From Streptomyces sp. Je 1-332 (lineage in GTDB: Bacteria; Actinomycetota; Actinomycetes; Streptomycetales; Streptomycetaceae): a stretch of 64,000 nt of DNA. Shown piece after piece: positions 1,115-6,664 of this stretch (within the stretch, counting starts at the first letter, position 1; every line of letters begins with the position of its first letter). The notes under the pieces are model-generated. The model was given only the letters and a program-made list of their open reading frames with translations. It was not told the origin of the DNA and did no database searches. The position numbers and the translations under genes were made by a program. The stretch covers positions 7,502,001-7,566,000 of the forward strand of contig NZ_CP160402.1 of the NCBI RefSeq assembly GCF_040730185.1, read 5' to 3'.

Positions 1115-1183
1115 GCCGGGACACCTCAAGAGAGATGTTTGGCCAACGGATTACGGGCCACTCGTGAAGAAGAGGTGGCCATA

Positions 1184-1546
1184 TTGAACACATCGTCGGA
1201 TCCAGAGAAGAAGAAGGCGAGTTCGCAGAACTCGCGCAATTCAACCGAAAACGCGGATAGCGGCGGGACGAAGCGCCGCCCGGGTCCCATGGAGGTGCTG
1301 CGCACCGCACGCACCCAGCTCGCGGAGCTGACCGGGATGGTCGCCGAGTCCGTGTCGTCCTTCGAGCAGACCGAGGACGGCTGGACGTTGGAGATCGAGG
1401 TCCTGGAACTCACCCGGGTTCCGGACACGATGAGTCTCCTCGCCAGCTACCAGGTGGAGTGCGACCCGCAGGGCGAACTCCTCGGTTACAAGCGCGTCCG
1501 CCGCTACGAACGCGGGCGCGCCGACCAGAAGGCCGGCGGCCGGTAG
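1184..1546 (+). CDS. gvpO: Gas vesicle protein GvpO
   Basis: 120 aa from a TTG at 1184 preceded by GAAGAAGAGG; in-frame GTG 1175 and TTG 1139 are alternatives. The Lys/Ser/Asn-rich N-terminus is disordered. The conserved domain follows, with GPMEVLRTARTQLAELTG, a segment with VSSFEQTEDGWTLEIEVLEL, and a DPQGELLGYKRVRRYERGR ending. This is the GvpO family, an accessory protein needed for gas vesicle formation in haloarchaea and present in actinobacterial gvp clusters. It opens the ten-gene gvp run here, 68 bp before gvpA. Start choice is uncertain; family assignment is firm. Confidence 0.88.
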   Translation: MNTSSDPEKKKASSQNSRNSTENADSGGTKRRPGPMEVLRTARTQLAELTGMVAESVSSFEQTEDGWTLEIEVLELTRVPDTMSLLASYQVECDPQGELLGYKRVRRYERGRADQKAGGR

Positions 1547-1614
1547 CGCACCCGTCGCGCGGGTTTCTCCGCGGATTTTCCAACAGACTCCCCAGATAAG
1601 GAGGGCCGGTCGTC

Positions 1615-2040
1615 ATGACCGTTGTCCCTGCACAGCAATCCGGTGGATCGGGCGGCACCAGTGGCCTGTACGACGTCCTGGAGCTCGTTCTCGACCGAGG
1701 CCTCGTGATCGACGCCTTCGTGCGTGTCTCGCTGGTCGGCATCGAGATCCTGAAGATCGACGTGCGTGTGGTCATAGCCAGCGTGGACACGTATCTGCGC
1801 TTCGCCGAGGCGTGCAACCGCCTCGACCTGGAGGCGGGACCGCGCAAGGATCCCGGGCTCCCCGACCTGGTGGGCGAGATGACCGAGTCCGGCGCGCGTG
1901 GCAAGTCCAAGGGCGCGCTGTCCGGTGCCGCCGAGACCATTTCCGACGCGTTCAAGCAGTCCCGTGAAGAGAGCCAGACGGAGTCCCGTCCGCGCGCCCG
2001 TAAGAGCACGTCGGCGCGGAGGAAGGAGGAGCAGGAATGA
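1615..2040 (+). CDS. gvpA: Gas vesicle structural protein GvpA
   Basis: 141 aa. Residues 17-75 are the GvpA core that builds the gas-permeable, water-excluding shell: LYDVLELVLDRGLVIDAFVRVSLVGIE, then VRVVIASVDTYLRFAEA. Classical GvpA is about 70-75 aa, so roughly 65 residues are an added C-terminal tail. The tail is charged and Ser/Lys/Arg-rich, ending in a KSTSARRKEEQE-like segment. A strong AAGGAGGG ribosome-binding site precedes the ATG, the best in the cluster, as expected for the major shell protein. The stop overlaps the gvpF start (ATGA). Long tails are more usual in minor shell proteins, so this could instead be a GvpJ-like paralogue used as GvpA. Confidence 0.92.
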   Translation: MTVVPAQQSGGSGGTSGLYDVLELVLDRGLVIDAFVRVSLVGIEILKIDVRVVIASVDTYLRFAEACNRLDLEAGPRKDPGLPDLVGEMTESGARGKSKGALSGAAETISDAFKQSREESQTESRPRARKSTSARRKEEQE

Positions 2041-2816
2041 GCACCTACGTCTATGGCATCGCCGCGAGTTCACACCCGGCACTGCCCGAAGGCATGGACG
2101 GCGTGGGCAAGCCCTCTCGCCCCGTGCGCATCGTCAGGGAAGGCGACCTGGCGGCGATCGTCAGTGAGGCGCCCGAGTCGCTGCGCGCCAAGCGCCACGA
2201 CCTGCTGGCCCACCAGAACGTGCTGAACGAGGCAGGCGCGGCGGGCCCGGTCCTTCCCATGCGGTTCGGCAACGTCGCACCGGACGACGCGTCCGTCACG
2301 AGCGTCCTCGCCGAACGCGCTGAGCACTACCGCGAGCGGCTCGCCACGCTGGCCGGCAAGGTCGAGTACAACGTCAAGGCGAGCCACGAGGAGCAGGCCG
2401 CCCTGCACCGCGTGATGGCCGACAACCCCGAGGTGCAGGCACTGGCCGAGGCCAACCGGCAGGCGGGCGGCGGCAGTTACGAGCAGAAGCTGCAGCTCGG
2501 CGAGATGGTGGTGAACGCGCTCCAGGCCCGCGAGGCCGAGGACGCGGTGGAACTGCACCGCGCTCTGGAGCCCACCGCGCACGCCGTCAGTGTGGGCCCC
2601 GAGTCCACCGGATGGCTGGCCAACCTGTCGTTCCTGGTGGAGCGCGACTCGTCCGCGGTGTTCCTCTCCGCGGTCGACGAGGTCCGCAAGAGCCATCCGC
2701 ACATCGAGCTGCGGGTCAACGGCCCGCTGCCGCCCTACAGCTTCGTCGAGCCCGGGCCCTCCGAGCCGACCGGAGCCACGCCGGAGTCCGCTTCCTCGAA
2801 GGCGGGCGGCGAGTAG
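2037..2816 (+). CDS. gvpF: Gas vesicle protein GvpF (GvpL/GvpF family)
   Basis: 259 aa. It has the GvpL/F family hallmarks: an N-terminal MSTYVYGIA strand, the LPMRFGNV motif around residue 80, the VEYNVKA segment, and a C-terminal SFLVERD...F...V.GPLPPYSFV block near 195-240. GvpF is a minor accessory protein thought to act with GvpA at assembly nucleation. The last 20 residues are Pro/Ser/Gly-rich. It overlaps gvpA by 4 bp and lies 3 bp before gvpG, so the genes are translationally coupled. A second family member, gvpL, lies 2.5 kb downstream. Confidence 0.95.
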   Translation: MSTYVYGIAASSHPALPEGMDGVGKPSRPVRIVREGDLAAIVSEAPESLRAKRHDLLAHQNVLNEAGAAGPVLPMRFGNVAPDDASVTSVLAERAEHYRERLATLAGKVEYNVKASHEEQAALHRVMADNPEVQALAEANRQAGGGSYEQKLQLGEMVVNALQAREAEDAVELHRALEPTAHAVSVGPESTGWLANLSFLVERDSSAVFLSAVDEVRKSHPHIELRVNGPLPPYSFVEPGPSEPTGATPESASSKAGGE

Positions 2817-2819
2817 CGG

Positions 2820-3083
2820 ATGGGACTCATCGGCGAAGTACTGATGCTGCCGTTCGCCCCGGTGCGCGGCGGCCTCTGGGCGGTGAGCCAGGTACTCGCC
2901 GAGGCCGAGCGCCTGTACTACGACCCGGCCACCGTCCGGTCCGAACTCGCCCTTCTCGAGCAGCGGCTCGAGTCGGGCGAGCTCGGAGAGGAGGAATTCG
3001 ACCGCTTGGAGGACGAGTTGCTCGACCGACTGGAAATTGGCCTGCGCGGCGGCGCGGGAACCGACAACGGGACCACATCATGA
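2820..3083 (+). CDS. gvpG: Gas vesicle protein GvpG
   Basis: 87 aa, typical for the family. It begins with the characteristic amphipathic MGLIGEVLMLPFAPVRGGLWAV segment. A helical, acidic coiled-coil-like region follows (residues 23-73) with YYDPATVRSELALLEQ. GvpG is a small helical accessory protein found next to gvpF in most gas vesicle clusters and is presumed to act in assembly. It starts 3 bp after gvpF and its stop codon overlaps the gvpY ATG (ATGA). Confidence 0.95.
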   Translation: MGLIGEVLMLPFAPVRGGLWAVSQVLAEAERLYYDPATVRSELALLEQRLESGELGEEEFDRLEDELLDRLEIGLRGGAGTDNGTTS

Positions 3084-3769
3084 ATCGACTGGGAATGGGC
3101 CTCGCCGTAGGGGCCGGATACTTCCTCGGACGTACGAAGAAGATGAAGCTGGCGTTCGCGGTCGGCACGATGGTGGCCGGCAAGCGGATGAACCTGAGCC
3201 CGCGCGCCCTGGGCGACCTGCTGTCCCAACAGCTGCAGAACAACCCGCAGTTCAAGGAGATCGGCGACCAGCTGCGCGAGGACATGCGCGGGGTCGGCAA
3301 GGCCGCGACCGGTGCGCTGGTCGAGCGGCAGATCTCGGGCCTCGCCGACCGGCTGCACGGTCGGACGGCGGACGTGCGCGACCAGCTCTCGGGCGTGAAG
3401 CCGGACATACCCGGCCGCGGGCGCGATGAAGACACCGAGGAGTCCGACGACGCGTACGAGGAGTACGACGACGAGGACGATCGGGACGAGCAGGACGATC
3501 GGGACCGTGAGGACACCGCGGACGCGGAGTCCGACGAGGAGTCCGACGAGGAGTCCGACGAAAGGCCGCGGGCGAGGAAGAAGGCTCCCGCGAAGAAGGC
3601 CGCCCCGAAGAAGGCGGCGGCCAAGAAGACCCCCGCGAGGAAGACGGCGGCGCAGAAGAGCCCGGCGAAGAAGACGGCGAAGAAGGCCCCGGCCAGGGCC
3701 GCGGCGAAGAGCTCCACGCGCCGCGCCACCGGGTCCCGCGCGCCGAAGGAGGGGGGCCGCGATGAGTGA
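3080..3769 (+). CDS. gvpY: Streptomyces gas vesicle accessory protein GvpY, with acidic-then-basic tail
   Basis: 229 aa from an ATG overlapping the gvpG stop. Residues 1-110 are the conserved part, starting with a Gly-rich helix (GLAVGAGYFLGRTKKMKLA) and continuing with amphipathic helices around LLSQQLQNNPQF. Residues 115-161 are almost entirely Asp/Glu/Arg with ESDEESDEE repeats. Residues 163-223 are a histone-H1-like Lys/Ala/Pro run of KKAPAKK-type repeats. GvpY is known from Streptomyces gvp clusters by position, and its biochemical role is unknown. The sharp acid-to-base switch makes the tail a diblock polyampholyte, likely disordered, able to bind acidic partners such as the GvpZ tail, or DNA. 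Confidence 0.88.
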   Translation: MNRLGMGLAVGAGYFLGRTKKMKLAFAVGTMVAGKRMNLSPRALGDLLSQQLQNNPQFKEIGDQLREDMRGVGKAATGALVERQISGLADRLHGRTADVRDQLSGVKPDIPGRGRDEDTEESDDAYEEYDDEDDRDEQDDRDREDTADAESDEESDEESDERPRARKKAPAKKAAPKKAAAKKTPARKTAAQKSPAKKTAKKAPARAAAKSSTRRATGSRAPKEGGRDE

Positions 3770-4925
3770 CACCCTGAAGTCCGCGACCGGCAAGGCGAAG
3801 GACAATCCGCTCGCCGGCATCGCGCAGAGCGAGGCGGCCGACCGCCTGAAGTCGGAGTTGCAGGCATATCTCGGCGCACAGGCGCAGCGGCTGCTCGTCG
3901 GTGTGGGCCACAAGCTCGGCGAGACGACGGGCAAGCTCAACGACATAGCCGAGGGCAACAGCCCCGGCTTCGCCAAGCTCGCTCTCGACGGCGGCCGCAA
4001 GATGGCCGAGGGCAAGGGACCGCTGCGGTCCGCCGTGGAGGTCGGCGCCGGGCGCGCCAAGGACAGCGTGGTCGATGCCTTCAAGAACATGACCGGAGGC
4101 AAGGGCCGCCGCAAGGGCGGGGCCGGCAAGAAGCCGACGGTCATCATGGAGTTCATCGACGTCGGCGTGCCGCTGCGCACGGCGTACGACCAGTGGACCC
4201 AGTACCAGGACTTCAGCACCTTCGCCAAGGGCGTCAAGAGCGCGAACCGCGCCGACGACACCACCTCCGACTGGCAGGCCAAGGTCTTCTGGTCCAACCG
4301 GAGTTGGAAGGCGCACACCACCGAACAGATCGCGGACGACCGGATCGCGTGGACCTCGGAGGGTGCGAAGGGCACGACGAAGGGTGTCGTCTCCTTCCAC
4401 TCGCTGGCCGAGAACCTCACCCGCGTCCTGCTGGTCCTGGAGTACTACCCGAAGGGTCTCTTCGAGAAGACCGGCAACATCTGGCGCGCTCAGGGCCGCC
4501 GGGCCCGGCTCGACCTGAAGAACTACGCGCGCTTCATCACCATCAAGGGTGAGGCCGAGGACGGCTGGCGCGGTGAGATCCGCGACGGCGAGGTCGTCCA
4601 CAGCCACGAGGACGCGCTCGCCGAGGAGCAGGAGCAGGAGCAGGACCAGACCGAGGGCGAGCCGGAGGACGTCGCGGAGGACGAGGACGAGCGCGACGAC
4701 GAGGAGCAGCCCGAGGAGTCCTACGAGGACGACGAGGAGCAGCCCGAGGAGTCCTACGAGGACGAGGACGAAGAGGGCGCGGAAGACGAGGGCGAGGACG
4801 AGGCAAAGTACGAGGAAGACGAAGAAGAGGGCGAGGACGAGGCGAAGTATGACGAGGACGACGAGGGTGTAGAGGACGAGAAGTACGAAGAAGAAGAGCC
4901 CGCGACGAGCGGGAGTCGCCGATGA
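3762..4925 (+). CDS. gvpZ: Streptomyces gas vesicle protein GvpZ: SRPBCC domain plus polyacidic tail
   Basis: 387 aa from the ATG at 3762, which has GAAGGAGGGG upstream and overlaps the gvpY end by 8 bp. Residues 1-120 are helical and Lys/Gly-rich. Residues 126-262 form a START/SRPBCC (polyketide cyclase-like) fold: VIMEFIDVGVPLRTAYDQWTQ, WQAKVFWSNRSW, TRVLLVLEYYPKG. Residues 283-380 are about two-thirds Glu/Asp and hold two copies each of DDEEQPEESYE and EGEDEAKY. SRPBCC domains bind hydrophobic ligands; its ligand here is unknown. The tail charge is opposite to the GvpY tail. Internal repeats suggest length variation between strains. Confidence 0.88.
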   Translation: MSDTLKSATGKAKDNPLAGIAQSEAADRLKSELQAYLGAQAQRLLVGVGHKLGETTGKLNDIAEGNSPGFAKLALDGGRKMAEGKGPLRSAVEVGAGRAKDSVVDAFKNMTGGKGRRKGGAGKKPTVIMEFIDVGVPLRTAYDQWTQYQDFSTFAKGVKSANRADDTTSDWQAKVFWSNRSWKAHTTEQIADDRIAWTSEGAKGTTKGVVSFHSLAENLTRVLLVLEYYPKGLFEKTGNIWRAQGRRARLDLKNYARFITIKGEAEDGWRGEIRDGEVVHSHEDALAEEQEQEQDQTEGEPEDVAEDEDERDDEEQPEESYEDDEEQPEESYEDEDEEGAEDEGEDEAKYEEDEEEGEDEAKYDEDDEGVEDEKYEEEEPATSGSRR

Positions 4926-5359
4926 CCATGCCCAGCCGGATGCCGGAGCCGTACGGACAGGGCGGCGGTGCGAACCTCGCGGACATCCTGGAGCGCGTGC
5001 TCGACAAGGGGATCGTCATCGCCGGGGACATCCGGATCAACCTGCTCGACATAGAACTGCTCACCATCAAGCTGCGGCTCATCGTCGCCTCCGTCGACAA
5101 GGCGAAGGAGATGGGGATCGACTGGTGGGAGGACGACCCCGCGCTGTCCACCCGTGCGCGTCGCGACGAACTCACGCGTGAGAACGCCGAGTTGCGCGCC
5201 CATGTCGCCGAACTGGAGCAGGGCAGGACGGGCGAGGTGGAGCGAGGAAAGTCGAACAGCGGCAAGTCGGAGCCGAGTAAATCGGAACCGAGCAAATCGG
5301 AACCGAGTAAGTCGGCGCAGAGCAGGACAGCGCAGAGCAAGACGGAGGAAAGCACATGA
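4922..5359 (+). CDS. gvpJ: Gas vesicle protein GvpJ (GvpA-related)
   Basis: 145 aa. Residues 18-65 are a GvpA-family core (LADILERVLDKGIVIAGDIRINLLDIELLTIKLRLIVASVDKA). A GIDWWEDDP segment follows, as seen in GvpJ/GvpM-type minor shell proteins, then a predicted coiled coil (80-101). A Ser/Lys/Glu tail contains tandem KSEPS units (about 116-132). GvpJ is a minor shell protein thought to help nucleate or shape the vesicle ends. It overlaps gvpZ and gvpL by 4 bp each. The name follows the order in Streptomyces clusters. Confidence 0.9.
   Translation: MTMPSRMPEPYGQGGGANLADILERVLDKGIVIAGDIRINLLDIELLTIKLRLIVASVDKAKEMGIDWWEDDPALSTRARRDELTRENAELRAHVAELEQGRTGEVERGKSNSGKSEPSKSEPSKSEPSKSAQSRTAQSKTEEST
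5264..5323 (+). repeat. Four 15-bp tandem repeats inside gvpJ
   Basis: Four consecutive 15-bp units begin at 5264, 5279, 5294 and 5309. The second and third differ only at the last base (AAATCGGAACCGAG + C/T); the first and fourth are diverged. Each adds five residues (KSEPS). The unit preserves frame, so copy-number change would lengthen or shorten the GvpJ tail without breaking the gene. Confidence 0.9.
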
Positions 5360-6144
5360 GCGGACTGCGGTACGTCTACGCGATCTGCCGGCCCTTCGAC
5401 GCGGCGCTCCAGGCGCAGGTGACCGGAGTGGACGGCGCGCCCCCCGGTCAGCTGTCCCACCACGGCCTGATCGCGGTGGTGGGCACGGTGCCGGAGGAGG
5501 ACTTCGGCGAGGAGCCGCTCCGGCGCCACCTGGAGGACCTGGACTGGCTGAGTGCGACCGCACGCGCCCACCAGGCCGTGATCGACGCGCTGACCGTGGT
5601 CACCACGCCGCTGCCGCTGCGGCTCGCGACCGTGTTCCGTGACGACGCGGGAGTGCGCGCCATGATGGAGGCGCGGGAGGACTCCTTCAGGCGCACGCTC
5701 GACCGGCTCGACGGCCGGGTGGAATGGGGCGTCAAGGTCTATTCCGACGCGCAGGCCGCAAGTCCGGCCGCCGAGCCGGAGAAGCCCGCCTCGGGCCGCG
5801 ACTACCTGCGCCAGCGCCGACAGCGCAACAAAGCTCACGAGGAGATGTGGGAGAGCGCGGAGAAGTTCGCGCACCGACTGCACGACACGCTCTGCGAGGG
5901 GGCGGAGGACGCTCGGCTGCACGCGCCCCAGAACTCCGCGCTCTCCAAGGAAACGGGTCGCAACGTACTCAACGCGGCCTACCTGGTGTCACGTTCGGAC
6001 TCGGAGGCCTTCGTGGAACTGGTGGAAGGAGTGAAGGGCCAGGAGTCCGGCATGCGCGTCGAGCTCACCGGACCGTGGGCCGCGTACTCCTTCGCGGGCC
6101 TGGAGGCCGAAGGGGACGACACGCCGGGGGAGGCGGGACTGTGA
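5356..6144 (+). CDS. gvpL: Gas vesicle protein GvpL (GvpL/GvpF family)
   Basis: 262 aa. The second GvpL/F paralogue of the cluster: LRYVYAICRPF at the N-terminus, TPLPLRLATVF near 80, RVEWGVKVY near 115, LNAAYLVSRSD near 205 and LTGPWAAYSFA near 235. Compared with GvpF it has an insertion rich in Pro/Arg/Gln (about 130-160). GvpL is an accessory protein proposed to bridge minor Gvp proteins during assembly. It overlaps gvpJ (ATGA) and gvpS (GTGA), so expression of the three is coupled. Confidence 0.95.
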   Translation: MSGLRYVYAICRPFDAALQAQVTGVDGAPPGQLSHHGLIAVVGTVPEEDFGEEPLRRHLEDLDWLSATARAHQAVIDALTVVTTPLPLRLATVFRDDAGVRAMMEAREDSFRRTLDRLDGRVEWGVKVYSDAQAASPAAEPEKPASGRDYLRQRRQRNKAHEEMWESAEKFAHRLHDTLCEGAEDARLHAPQNSALSKETGRNVLNAAYLVSRSDSEAFVELVEGVKGQESGMRVELTGPWAAYSFAGLEAEGDDTPGEAGL

Positions 6145-6329
6145 CCGTCATAGAACGCCGGGAGGTCGCCCTCGTCGACCTGCTCGACCGGTTGCTCGCG
6201 GGCGGGGTCGTCATCTCCGGTGACCTCACGCTGCGCATCGCGGACGTCGATCTCGTCCGCATCGACCTGAACGCGCTCATCAGCTCGGTGAACGAGCAAG
6301 TCCCCTCGCCCTTCGAGGAGTTGCTGTGA
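6141..6329 (+). CDS. gvpS: Gas vesicle protein GvpS (short GvpA-family protein)
   Basis: 62 aa from a GTG that overlaps the gvpL stop (GTGA). It is almost entirely a GvpA-like core: VALVDLLDRLLAGGVVISGDLTLRIADVDLVRIDLNALISSV. It lacks the tails of GvpA and GvpJ here, so the cluster encodes three shell-type proteins of graded length (62, 141 and 145 aa). It overlaps gvpK by 4 bp. It probably acts as a minor shell or capping component by family analogy. Confidence 0.9.
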   Translation: MTVIERREVALVDLLDRLLAGGVVISGDLTLRIADVDLVRIDLNALISSVNEQVPSPFEELL

Positions 6330-6664
6330 GCGAGGCCGAGCGCGAGCGTGAGCAGATCCGCGAGCAGGCCCGGGAGCGGCCCGCGGGGAAGAAGAACCGG
6401 CTCGAACTGGAGCCGGACACCGTGGAACGCGATCTGATCAAACTGGTCCTGACCGTCGTGGAGCTGCTGCGGCAGCTCATGGAGCGGCAGGCCGTGCGCC
6501 GGTTCGACACCGGCGAGCTGGACGAGGACCAGGAGGAGCGCATCGGCCTCACGCTGATGCTCCTCGACGATCGCATGGCCGAACTCCGCGACCGTTACGG
6601 CCTGCGGCCCGAGGACCTGAATCTGGACCTCGGGCCGCTGGGGCCGCTCCTGCCGAGGGACTAG
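6326..6664 (+). CDS. gvpK: Gas vesicle protein GvpK
   Basis: 112 aa from a GTG overlapping the gvpS stop. The GvpK family core is clear: RLELEPDTVERDLIKLVLTVVELLRQLMERQAVRRF, then LTLMLLDDRMAELRDRYGL. GvpK is an accessory protein of unknown biochemical role, required in several systems for full-size vesicles. The first 20 residues are Arg/Glu-rich. It is the last gene of the run; its stop overlaps by 4 bp the stop of the convergent pfpI-like gene, and I see no hairpin terminator between them. Confidence 0.94.
   Translation: MSEAEREREQIREQARERPAGKKNRLELEPDTVERDLIKLVLTVVELLRQLMERQAVRRFDTGELDEDQEERIGLTLMLLDDRMAELRDRYGLRPEDLNLDLGPLGPLLPRD

Follow-up and report, generated by a model that had tools for sequence, protein, structure and literature searches.

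Results

We analyzed a window of 64,000 nucleotides from Streptomyces sp. Je 1-332 (NZ_CP160402.1, positions 7,502,001 to 7,566,000), the genome of which is a single contig of 8.27 Mb. Two adjacent genes of a gas vesicle operon in this window, gvpY and gvpZ, encode proteins with charged tails, which are a real, conserved, and unusual feature that was partly misread at first. GvpY carries an acidic block followed by a basic block, and GvpZ ends in a long acidic tail. A previous interpretation of this DNA, the sequence-only reading, had drawn the boundaries of all three blocks correctly (Table 1). Of the readings considered, the likeliest is that GvpY and GvpZ are a tether-like pair, related in kind to granule tethers. 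More tentatively, it is quite possible, though short of probable, that they would form a two-protein module by which gas vesicle assemblies, or some other client, are moored at the nucleoid, as sequence features and analogy suggest.

Tail conservation in Streptomycetaceae

GvpZ was sought in 200 Streptomycetaceae genomes. The loci read were 100 of the listed places (mostly best matches), 12 more stretches added later, and 80 of 308 named loci; these sets overlap. With the window and a second cluster of the same genome (L008), 182 loci hold GvpZ. GvpY lies upstream on the same strand in 176 of the 182 by a first criterion, and both proteins are present in 178 by a second. One candidate locus without GvpY, L055, was rejected when the profile found a short GvpY there (L230). 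Three loci (L071, L086, and L145) were removed from the charge counts because their GvpY tails look out of frame; the frame apparently shifts after the acidic repeat, through repeat slippage or assembly error. Seven duplicate pairs were removed to give a set of 168 distinct pairs, while duplicates remain in the 175-row, 218-row, and 215-pair sets used below.

The acid-then-base order of GvpY was found in 168/168 pairs. Each GvpY block reached at least 8 net charges in 167 pairs, and the GvpZ tail had a net charge of -20 or lower in 167, the outliers being L096 (mixed, weak GvpY) and L107 (weak GvpZ). Charge was kept while tail length ranged from 41 to 150 residues in GvpZ and from 75 to 311 in GvpY. 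Loss of tail charge across orthologues was an outcome that the sequence-only reading had named as fatal to its idea, and in Streptomycetaceae this did not occur. Windows of 50 residues in which at least 50% are acidic were present in 163/168 GvpZ and 69/107 GvpY proteins, compared to 1/1,662 open reading frames (ORFs) without a gvp match in the fetched loci; for basic windows, the counts were 77/107 GvpY and 38/1,662 such ORFs.

The acidic and basic charges of GvpY nearly cancel within the same chain (median net -1), and the segregation of charge in GvpY was matched by 0 of 10,000 shuffles. By composition and repeats, an H1-like basic tail, of the type borne by PhaF and AlgP, was found on GvpY in 145 of the 175 Streptomycetaceae rows. 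GvpZ had a basic block below +6 in 149 of these rows and at least two Lys or Arg among its last eight residues in 156 (background ORFs, 1,152/2,530). The whole tail of the window GvpZ has a net charge of about -55, and its acidic part is made in part of 33–39 nt tandem repeats. The two genes were confirmed as close neighbors, the GvpY stop falling -12 to +20 nt from the GvpZ start in 170/175 rows. In 20 loci, gvpY and gvpZ form a unit of two genes, and the remaining gvp genes lie on the other strand. We considered whether all 29 loci with the "YZ" order lie outside gas vesicle clusters; this was refuted, as 20 of the 29 have opposite-strand gvp genes in the same stretch. The sequence-only reading had also enlisted the Lys/Arg/Ser tail of GvpA and the Lys/Ser/Glu tail of GvpJ as charged partners. 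These were ruled out because they are near neutral, with a net charge of +2 in the window and medians of +1 and -1, respectively, over 167 loci each.

Upstream of its tail, GvpY has an N-terminal domain of about 100 residues, in which apolar stretches flank a GYxLGRTKK turn. Many of the 120 listed GvpY relatives are annotated in NCBI as "DNA primase", a label that is evidently wrong, as neither Pfam nor NCBIfam supports it. GvpZ consists of an N-terminal part (residues 1–130), an SRPBCC domain (63.4 bits, cut-off 23.4), the acidic tail, and a short basic C-terminal cap. In a comparison of the GvpZ profile with the PDB, its N-terminal part reached only E 0.06 against apolipoprotein A-IV.

Charge covariation between the partners

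The sequence-only reading had proposed co-condensation by complementary tails. If the tails were mutually tuned, the acid load of GvpZ should follow the base load of GvpY. Over the 168 Streptomycetaceae pairs, it did not (Spearman -0.05, p 0.53; independent contrasts r 0.06, p 0.47). Within GvpY, acid and base were correlated (Spearman 0.67; contrasts r 0.33, p 1e-5). This link disappears per residue (0.06, p 0.41), so that it comes mostly from both loads growing with the length of the tail.

At greater depth, a link between the proteins was seen. Contrasts over 215 pairs from all families gave r 0.19 (p 0.004), exceeded by the within-chain values for GvpY (r 0.28) and GvpZ (r 0.52). Over the 40 pairs outside Streptomycetaceae, the Spearman coefficient between GvpZ acid and GvpY base was 0.53 (p 5e-4), with contrasts at r 0.25 (p 0.11), and the within-GvpY link was absent (r -0.30, p 0.06). 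At the level of seven groups, the medians also correlated (rho 0.81, p 0.03), the groups being few and non-independent, with the Rhodococcus plasmids as a group of their own. Mutual tuning was thus not observed at the scale that holds most of the data and may exist at depth, and co-condensation by complementary tails has weak support.

Tail types beyond Streptomycetaceae

In a class-level search with the GvpZ profile, 58 of 246 genomes had a match of at least 1e-50 quality; some of these, including G585, G675, and G683, match in the SRPBCC part only. Many of the matches to that part lack the GvpZ N-terminal part. Twenty loci were read from this search; 19 had a GvpY-profile partner (all except L250) and 19 had gvp genes in the stretch (all except L247). 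Four Rhodococcus plasmid loci, of five records found, were also read, L254 and L255 being two plasmids of one strain. The family f3 contributed 18 loci (L256–L273) from 16 of 121 genomes, and f16 contributed two (L219 and L220). The plasmid search returned 8 plasmid records, and no GvpZ was found in phages. The gas vesicle genes of L251, L253, L254, and L255 lie on Rhodococcus plasmids that range in size from 52 kb to 1.36 Mb, and one of these loci is near parA/parB.

A C-terminal basic block on GvpY, GvpZ, or both was present in 211 of 218 rows, including 37/43 rows outside Streptomycetaceae; L263 was left out because it repeats L243. Comparison of the rows showed that the basic end varies in type and in carrier, with a constant position after the acidic stretch. 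The types are Lys repeats of the H1-like kind, RGRPR repeats that are AT-hook-like, and Arg-rich ends, all familiar from tails that bind DNA. In three of the four Rhodococcus loci, the acidic tail of GvpZ is followed by three or four RGRPR motifs, and in the fourth by H1-like Lys repeats. One to three RGRPR motifs were found on GvpZ in 3/18 f3 rows (two genomes) and H1-like repeats in 1/18; many GvpY tails of f3 end in an (A)PVRRxxR-like sequence. The RGRPR cases represent few events, because the f3 rows that have them fall with the Rhodococcus rows on the GvpZ tree. L250, in which no GvpY was found, has a GvpZ with a long block of acidic residues and, after it, an extended H1-like end. The GvpZ of L243 is basic, and the large acid block of this locus is on GvpY. 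Both tails are weak together in 4/7 rows of the family f85 (L235–L238).

All scanned proteins were below the curated Pfam cut-offs for AT_hook (PF02178) and HC2 (PF07382); one batch of rows, except for the window, was judged by E-values. HC2 matched the window GvpY weakly, at 22.3 bits (cut-off 40), and no AT_hook match was found in the window proteins. Three of six scanned RGRPR-bearing GvpZ proteins had no AT_hook match at E 0.1.

Pairs without gas vesicle shell genes

A GvpA-family match was found in 115 of the 200 Streptomycetaceae genomes. GvpZ (1e-45 or better) was present in 109 of these 115 compared to 8 of the 85 others (Fisher p 3e-38, kinship ignored). The GvpA genomes without GvpZ are G005, G072, G098, G113, G186, and G196; GvpZ without a GvpA-family match occurs in G008, G085, G100, G109, G116, G127, G135, and G174. 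In the latter eight, PF00741 gave no match even in a second search with a loose limit, and PF06386 (GvpF/L) gave none. The remaining gvp families were absent from the fetched stretches of these genomes, which were not searched whole for them. GvpY and GvpZ are therefore not specific to gas vesicles, as both are present in eight genomes without PF00741 and PF06386 matches.

The GvpA-less genomes hold nine GvpZ loci, and GvpY lies upstream on the same strand in all nine. The two genes are immediate neighbors in eight of them and roughly 1 kb apart in L274; the adjacent pair of G085 is L275. Their charged blocks persist (GvpY acid 16–44 and base 12–24; GvpZ acid 11–35), with short GvpZ tails of 28–60 residues. 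The ratio of nonsynonymous to synonymous substitution rates (dN/dS) was estimated by simple Nei-Gojobori counts. For the conserved domains, it was 0.27 and 0.33 in GvpZ and 0.19 and 0.18 in GvpY for L106-L226 and L278-L279, respectively, and it rose to 0.84, near saturation, in more distant pairs. L106 and L226 have neighbors in common, including guaA (recognized by eye), and across 11 loci with isolated pairs, the common neighbors were mainly just these shared surroundings.

Nine more pairs were found apart from gvp genes in GvpA-bearing genomes. No other gvp gene occurs in the 20 kb beyond the stretch for six of them (L060, L077, L078, L081, and L085; L093 on one side, with the contig end on the other), and three (L280, L281, and L282) were judged within 6 kb only. 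L086 was excluded from the isolated pairs, as it has a GvpA-family gene at a distance of about 10 kb. L284 (G042) has a GvpZ core with a 6-residue tail, no GvpY, and no gvp neighbors in the stretch. These data show that the GvpYZ pair is separable from gas vesicles, and that it persists in genomes in which no shell gene was found is the most unexpected result of this analysis. The suggestion of a repurposed system thus applies to this pair and not to the system as a whole.

The gas vesicle operon of the window

gvpYZ belong to an operon, gvpO-A-F-G-Y-Z-J-L-S-K, that spans positions 1175–6664, and Pfam names every product except GvpY. From gvpA onward, consecutive genes overlap by 4–8 nt, except for a 3 nt gap between gvpF and gvpG. 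Among the matches listed, the closest named relative by GvpZ was S. longisporoflavus (92%).

Table 1. Features of the gas vesicle operon in window coordinates
Feature	Position	Strand	Remarks
gvpO	1175..1546	+	PF05800; first gene of the operon; start anywhere from 1139 to 1184
gvpA	1615..2040	+	PF00741; tail conserved, near neutral
gvpF	2037..2816	+	PF06386
gvpG	2820..3083	+	PF05120
gvpY, 229 aa	3080..3769	+	No family at cut-off (Pfam, NCBIfam)
GvpY acidic block, residues 115-161	3422..3562	+	Net -27
GvpY basic Lys/Ala/Pro block, residues 163-223	3566..3748	+	H1-like; net +23
gvpZ, 387 aa	3762..4925	+	PF03364 SRPBCC domain at 134-253
GvpZ acidic tail, residues 283-380	4608..4901	+	Net -58
gvpJ	4922..5359	+	PF00741; SEPSK-repeat tail, net +2; outside the charged pair
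gvpL	5356..6144	+	PF06386
gvpS	6141..6329	+	PF00741
gvpK	6326..6664	+	PF05121

Immediately 5' of gvpO, positions 584–1114 (in-frame ATG at 650) encode a PF07332 Actinobacterial Holin-X membrane protein (50.3 bits, cut-off 28.4). A SigB-like promoter 5' of gvpO was not convincing, with 26 of 111 upstream stretches matching a loose pattern. An alignment of 40 of these 111 related stretches made an element GGTTTGG...GGCCAC visible upstream of gvpO; the sequence GTTTGGccaa...GGGCCAC at about 1137–1161 of the window resembles it. The second gvp cluster, at 278709-283963 of the same contig, has its own gvpY (409 aa, with a long H1-like tail) and gvpZ. An extra PF00741 match lies at 8.129 Mb of the contig (L009), and no GvpZ was found there.

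Discussion

Each protein of the pair would join a conserved N-terminal cargo side to a low-complexity tail. The putative cargo sides are the roughly 100 residues with apolar stretches in GvpY and the N-terminal region plus SRPBCC domain in GvpZ, and they would bind a hydrophobic cargo. The basic end would hold the module on the nucleoid (or on RNA or polyphosphate), and the acidic stretch would be a spacer that stops the basic end from collapsing onto the cargo or its neighbors. Where the pair accompanies gas vesicle genes, it would carry GvpA-family assemblies or completed vesicles and distribute them along the hypha so that they do not clump; in genomes without shell genes, the cargo would be something else. 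AT-hooks bind DNA and, therefore, charge neutralization alone would be insufficient to account for the RGRPR ends. Since an AT-hook-like end replaces an H1-like end at the same place, the selected property would seem to be nucleic acid binding and not mere positive charge. Among the guesses of the sequence-only reading, a tether to nucleic acid fits best. A wider version holds that GvpYZ is not a gas vesicle pair at all but a portable tether, with an acidic spacer and an exchangeable DNA-binding end on either partner, by which a hydrophobic body is moored to the chromosome. Actinobacterial gas vesicle loci would have taken it over for positioning vesicles, and in several Streptomycetaceae it would serve another body. 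We regard this version as doubtful.

Several observations weigh against a nucleoid tether. Proteins without DNA-binding activity can have Lys-rich tails as well. The best AT_hook and HC2 scores among the relatives were 17.2 bits (cut-off 17.4) and 39.0 bits (cut-off 40), the RGRPR cases are few and clustered (three f3 rows from two genomes, plus Rhodococcus), and no basic block of at least +6 was found on either protein in 7/218 rows (four f85, both f16 rows, which lack GvpY, and L096). The all-family contrasts leave room for direct pairing of the tails. In L106-L226, the sole pair measured, tail dN/dS was about 1.1 for GvpZ and 0.6 for GvpY, suggesting weak constraint on residues; therefore, charge is kept there more than residues are. 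Finally, it is composition that suggests a cargo role for the N-terminal parts, and binding of DNA, vesicles, and the partner are all predictions.

Two other explanations start from the tails themselves. In co-condensation, the acidic tail of GvpZ and the basic block of GvpY would attract each other, and the condensate would concentrate or store shell proteins. This agrees with opposite charges on translationally coupled neighbors, with the deeper between-protein correlations, and with the f85 rows in which both tails are weak jointly, and there is reportedly a precedent in Bacillus, where Li in 2024 is said to have described GvpU as a condensing accessory protein that clusters vesicles by phase transition (cited in PMC11445434 and PMC12695634). 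We consider co-condensation unlikely because the correlation is missing in Streptomycetaceae, GvpY is nearly self-neutralizing, GvpZ has more charge than GvpY could neutralize, and charge swaps carriers in L243 and L250. The tails might instead be bristles whose only effect is to hold the N-terminal domains and an aggregation-prone hydrophobic cargo in solution and separate, with no specific binding. The wide range of tail lengths at maintained charge, the scaling of GvpY acid and base with length and not per residue, and the weak residue-level constraint on the L106-L226 tails would all follow. Such bristles do not predict the fixed acid-then-base order of GvpY or the swap to AT-hook-like repeats, and this explanation is distinctly unlikely.

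Two further explanations concern the role of the pair as a whole. GvpYZ could be a general module, associated with stress or with the nucleoid, that works independently of gas vesicles in all cases, with gvp loci carrying it only through a shared stress (SigB) regulon. The pairs in genomes without PF00741 or PF06386 matches, the nine that stand apart from gvp genes in GvpA genomes, and the stress induction of S. coelicolor gvp genes noted in the passages available to us (PMC5733086, PMC3123327, PMC6629963) would fit such a module. The strong co-occurrence of GvpZ with GvpA and the position of the pair amid other gvp genes in most fetched loci make it improbable. Least probable by far is a nitrogen or amino acid store, or an unselected relic. 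Nitrogen storage was suggested by Botas et al. 2018, in the part of that paper seen here, because of ArgR control and the Arg/Glu/Pro content; gvp clusters of S. coelicolor are up in an argR mutant (PMC5839063). A store or relic would not explain why the domains and the order and charge of the tails are conserved, or why conserved-domain dN/dS is well below 1 in the closest pairs.

If Gvp assemblies are tethered to the nucleoid, GvpYZ would be a factor that anchors gas vesicles to the chromosome, and it would offer a way to control where vesicles lie when they serve as acoustic reporters. No such factor appeared among the literature matches listed, and the passages of an organelle-positioning review that were available do not include gas vesicles. 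The operon holds a function other than flotation, because the pair survives where no shell gene was found. Gas vesicles were reportedly discovered in a Streptomyces, judging by the title of a 2019 study by Huang et al. (cited in PMC11591506), which tempers the earlier statement that they have no known function in this genus. That statement otherwise stands in the literature passages at hand, where the role of gas vesicle genes in soil actinobacteria is regarded as an open question (PMC5839063).

Comparison with known systems

S. coelicolor has two gvp clusters with named gvpY/gvpZ (SCO6503/6504 and SCO0653/0654), listed as "(conserved) hypothetical" in Table 2 of the source, as far as its available text goes (PMC5839063). 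They share names and gene order with the genes of the window. One of these clusters is induced by cell-wall antibiotics and is reported, in the passages available, to be salt-induced and SigB-controlled (PMC5839063, PMC3123327, PMC5733086, PMC6629963). No description of the tails or function of actinobacterial GvpY/GvpZ was found among the open-licence PMC papers listed and the passages of them available. In Serratia sp. ATCC 39006, GvpY and GvpZ are function-unassigned proteins of its own cluster in the text seen (PMC4982088); only the name is in common with the actinobacterial pair, and homology is not implied. PF03364 Polyketide_cyc/SRPBCC proteins such as DR_A0006 (PDB 3ggn, 2kcz) match residues 134–253 of GvpZ, and many matches cover this part alone, unlike GvpZ with its extra N-terminal part.

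GvpU of Bacillus megaterium is a non-essential accessory protein of a gas vesicle locus that governs spatial organization, according to the portion of the source available (PMC11445434). Like GvpYZ, it is a gas vesicle-locus accessory protein, the two being compared by description only. The closest layout is that of PhaF, PhaM, and AlgP, which in the passages seen have a granule-associated N-terminus and a histone-like C-terminus that binds DNA, spacing granules on the nucleoid; the tail of AlgP and PhaF is a disordered KPAA repeat (PMC13052382, PMC9239181). As far as these passages describe them, they resemble GvpYZ in joining an N-terminal cargo part to a histone-like C-terminal part. GvpYZ differs in having an acidic block before the basic tail, in being split over two proteins, and in occurring at gas vesicle loci, and the likeness described here is one of layout.

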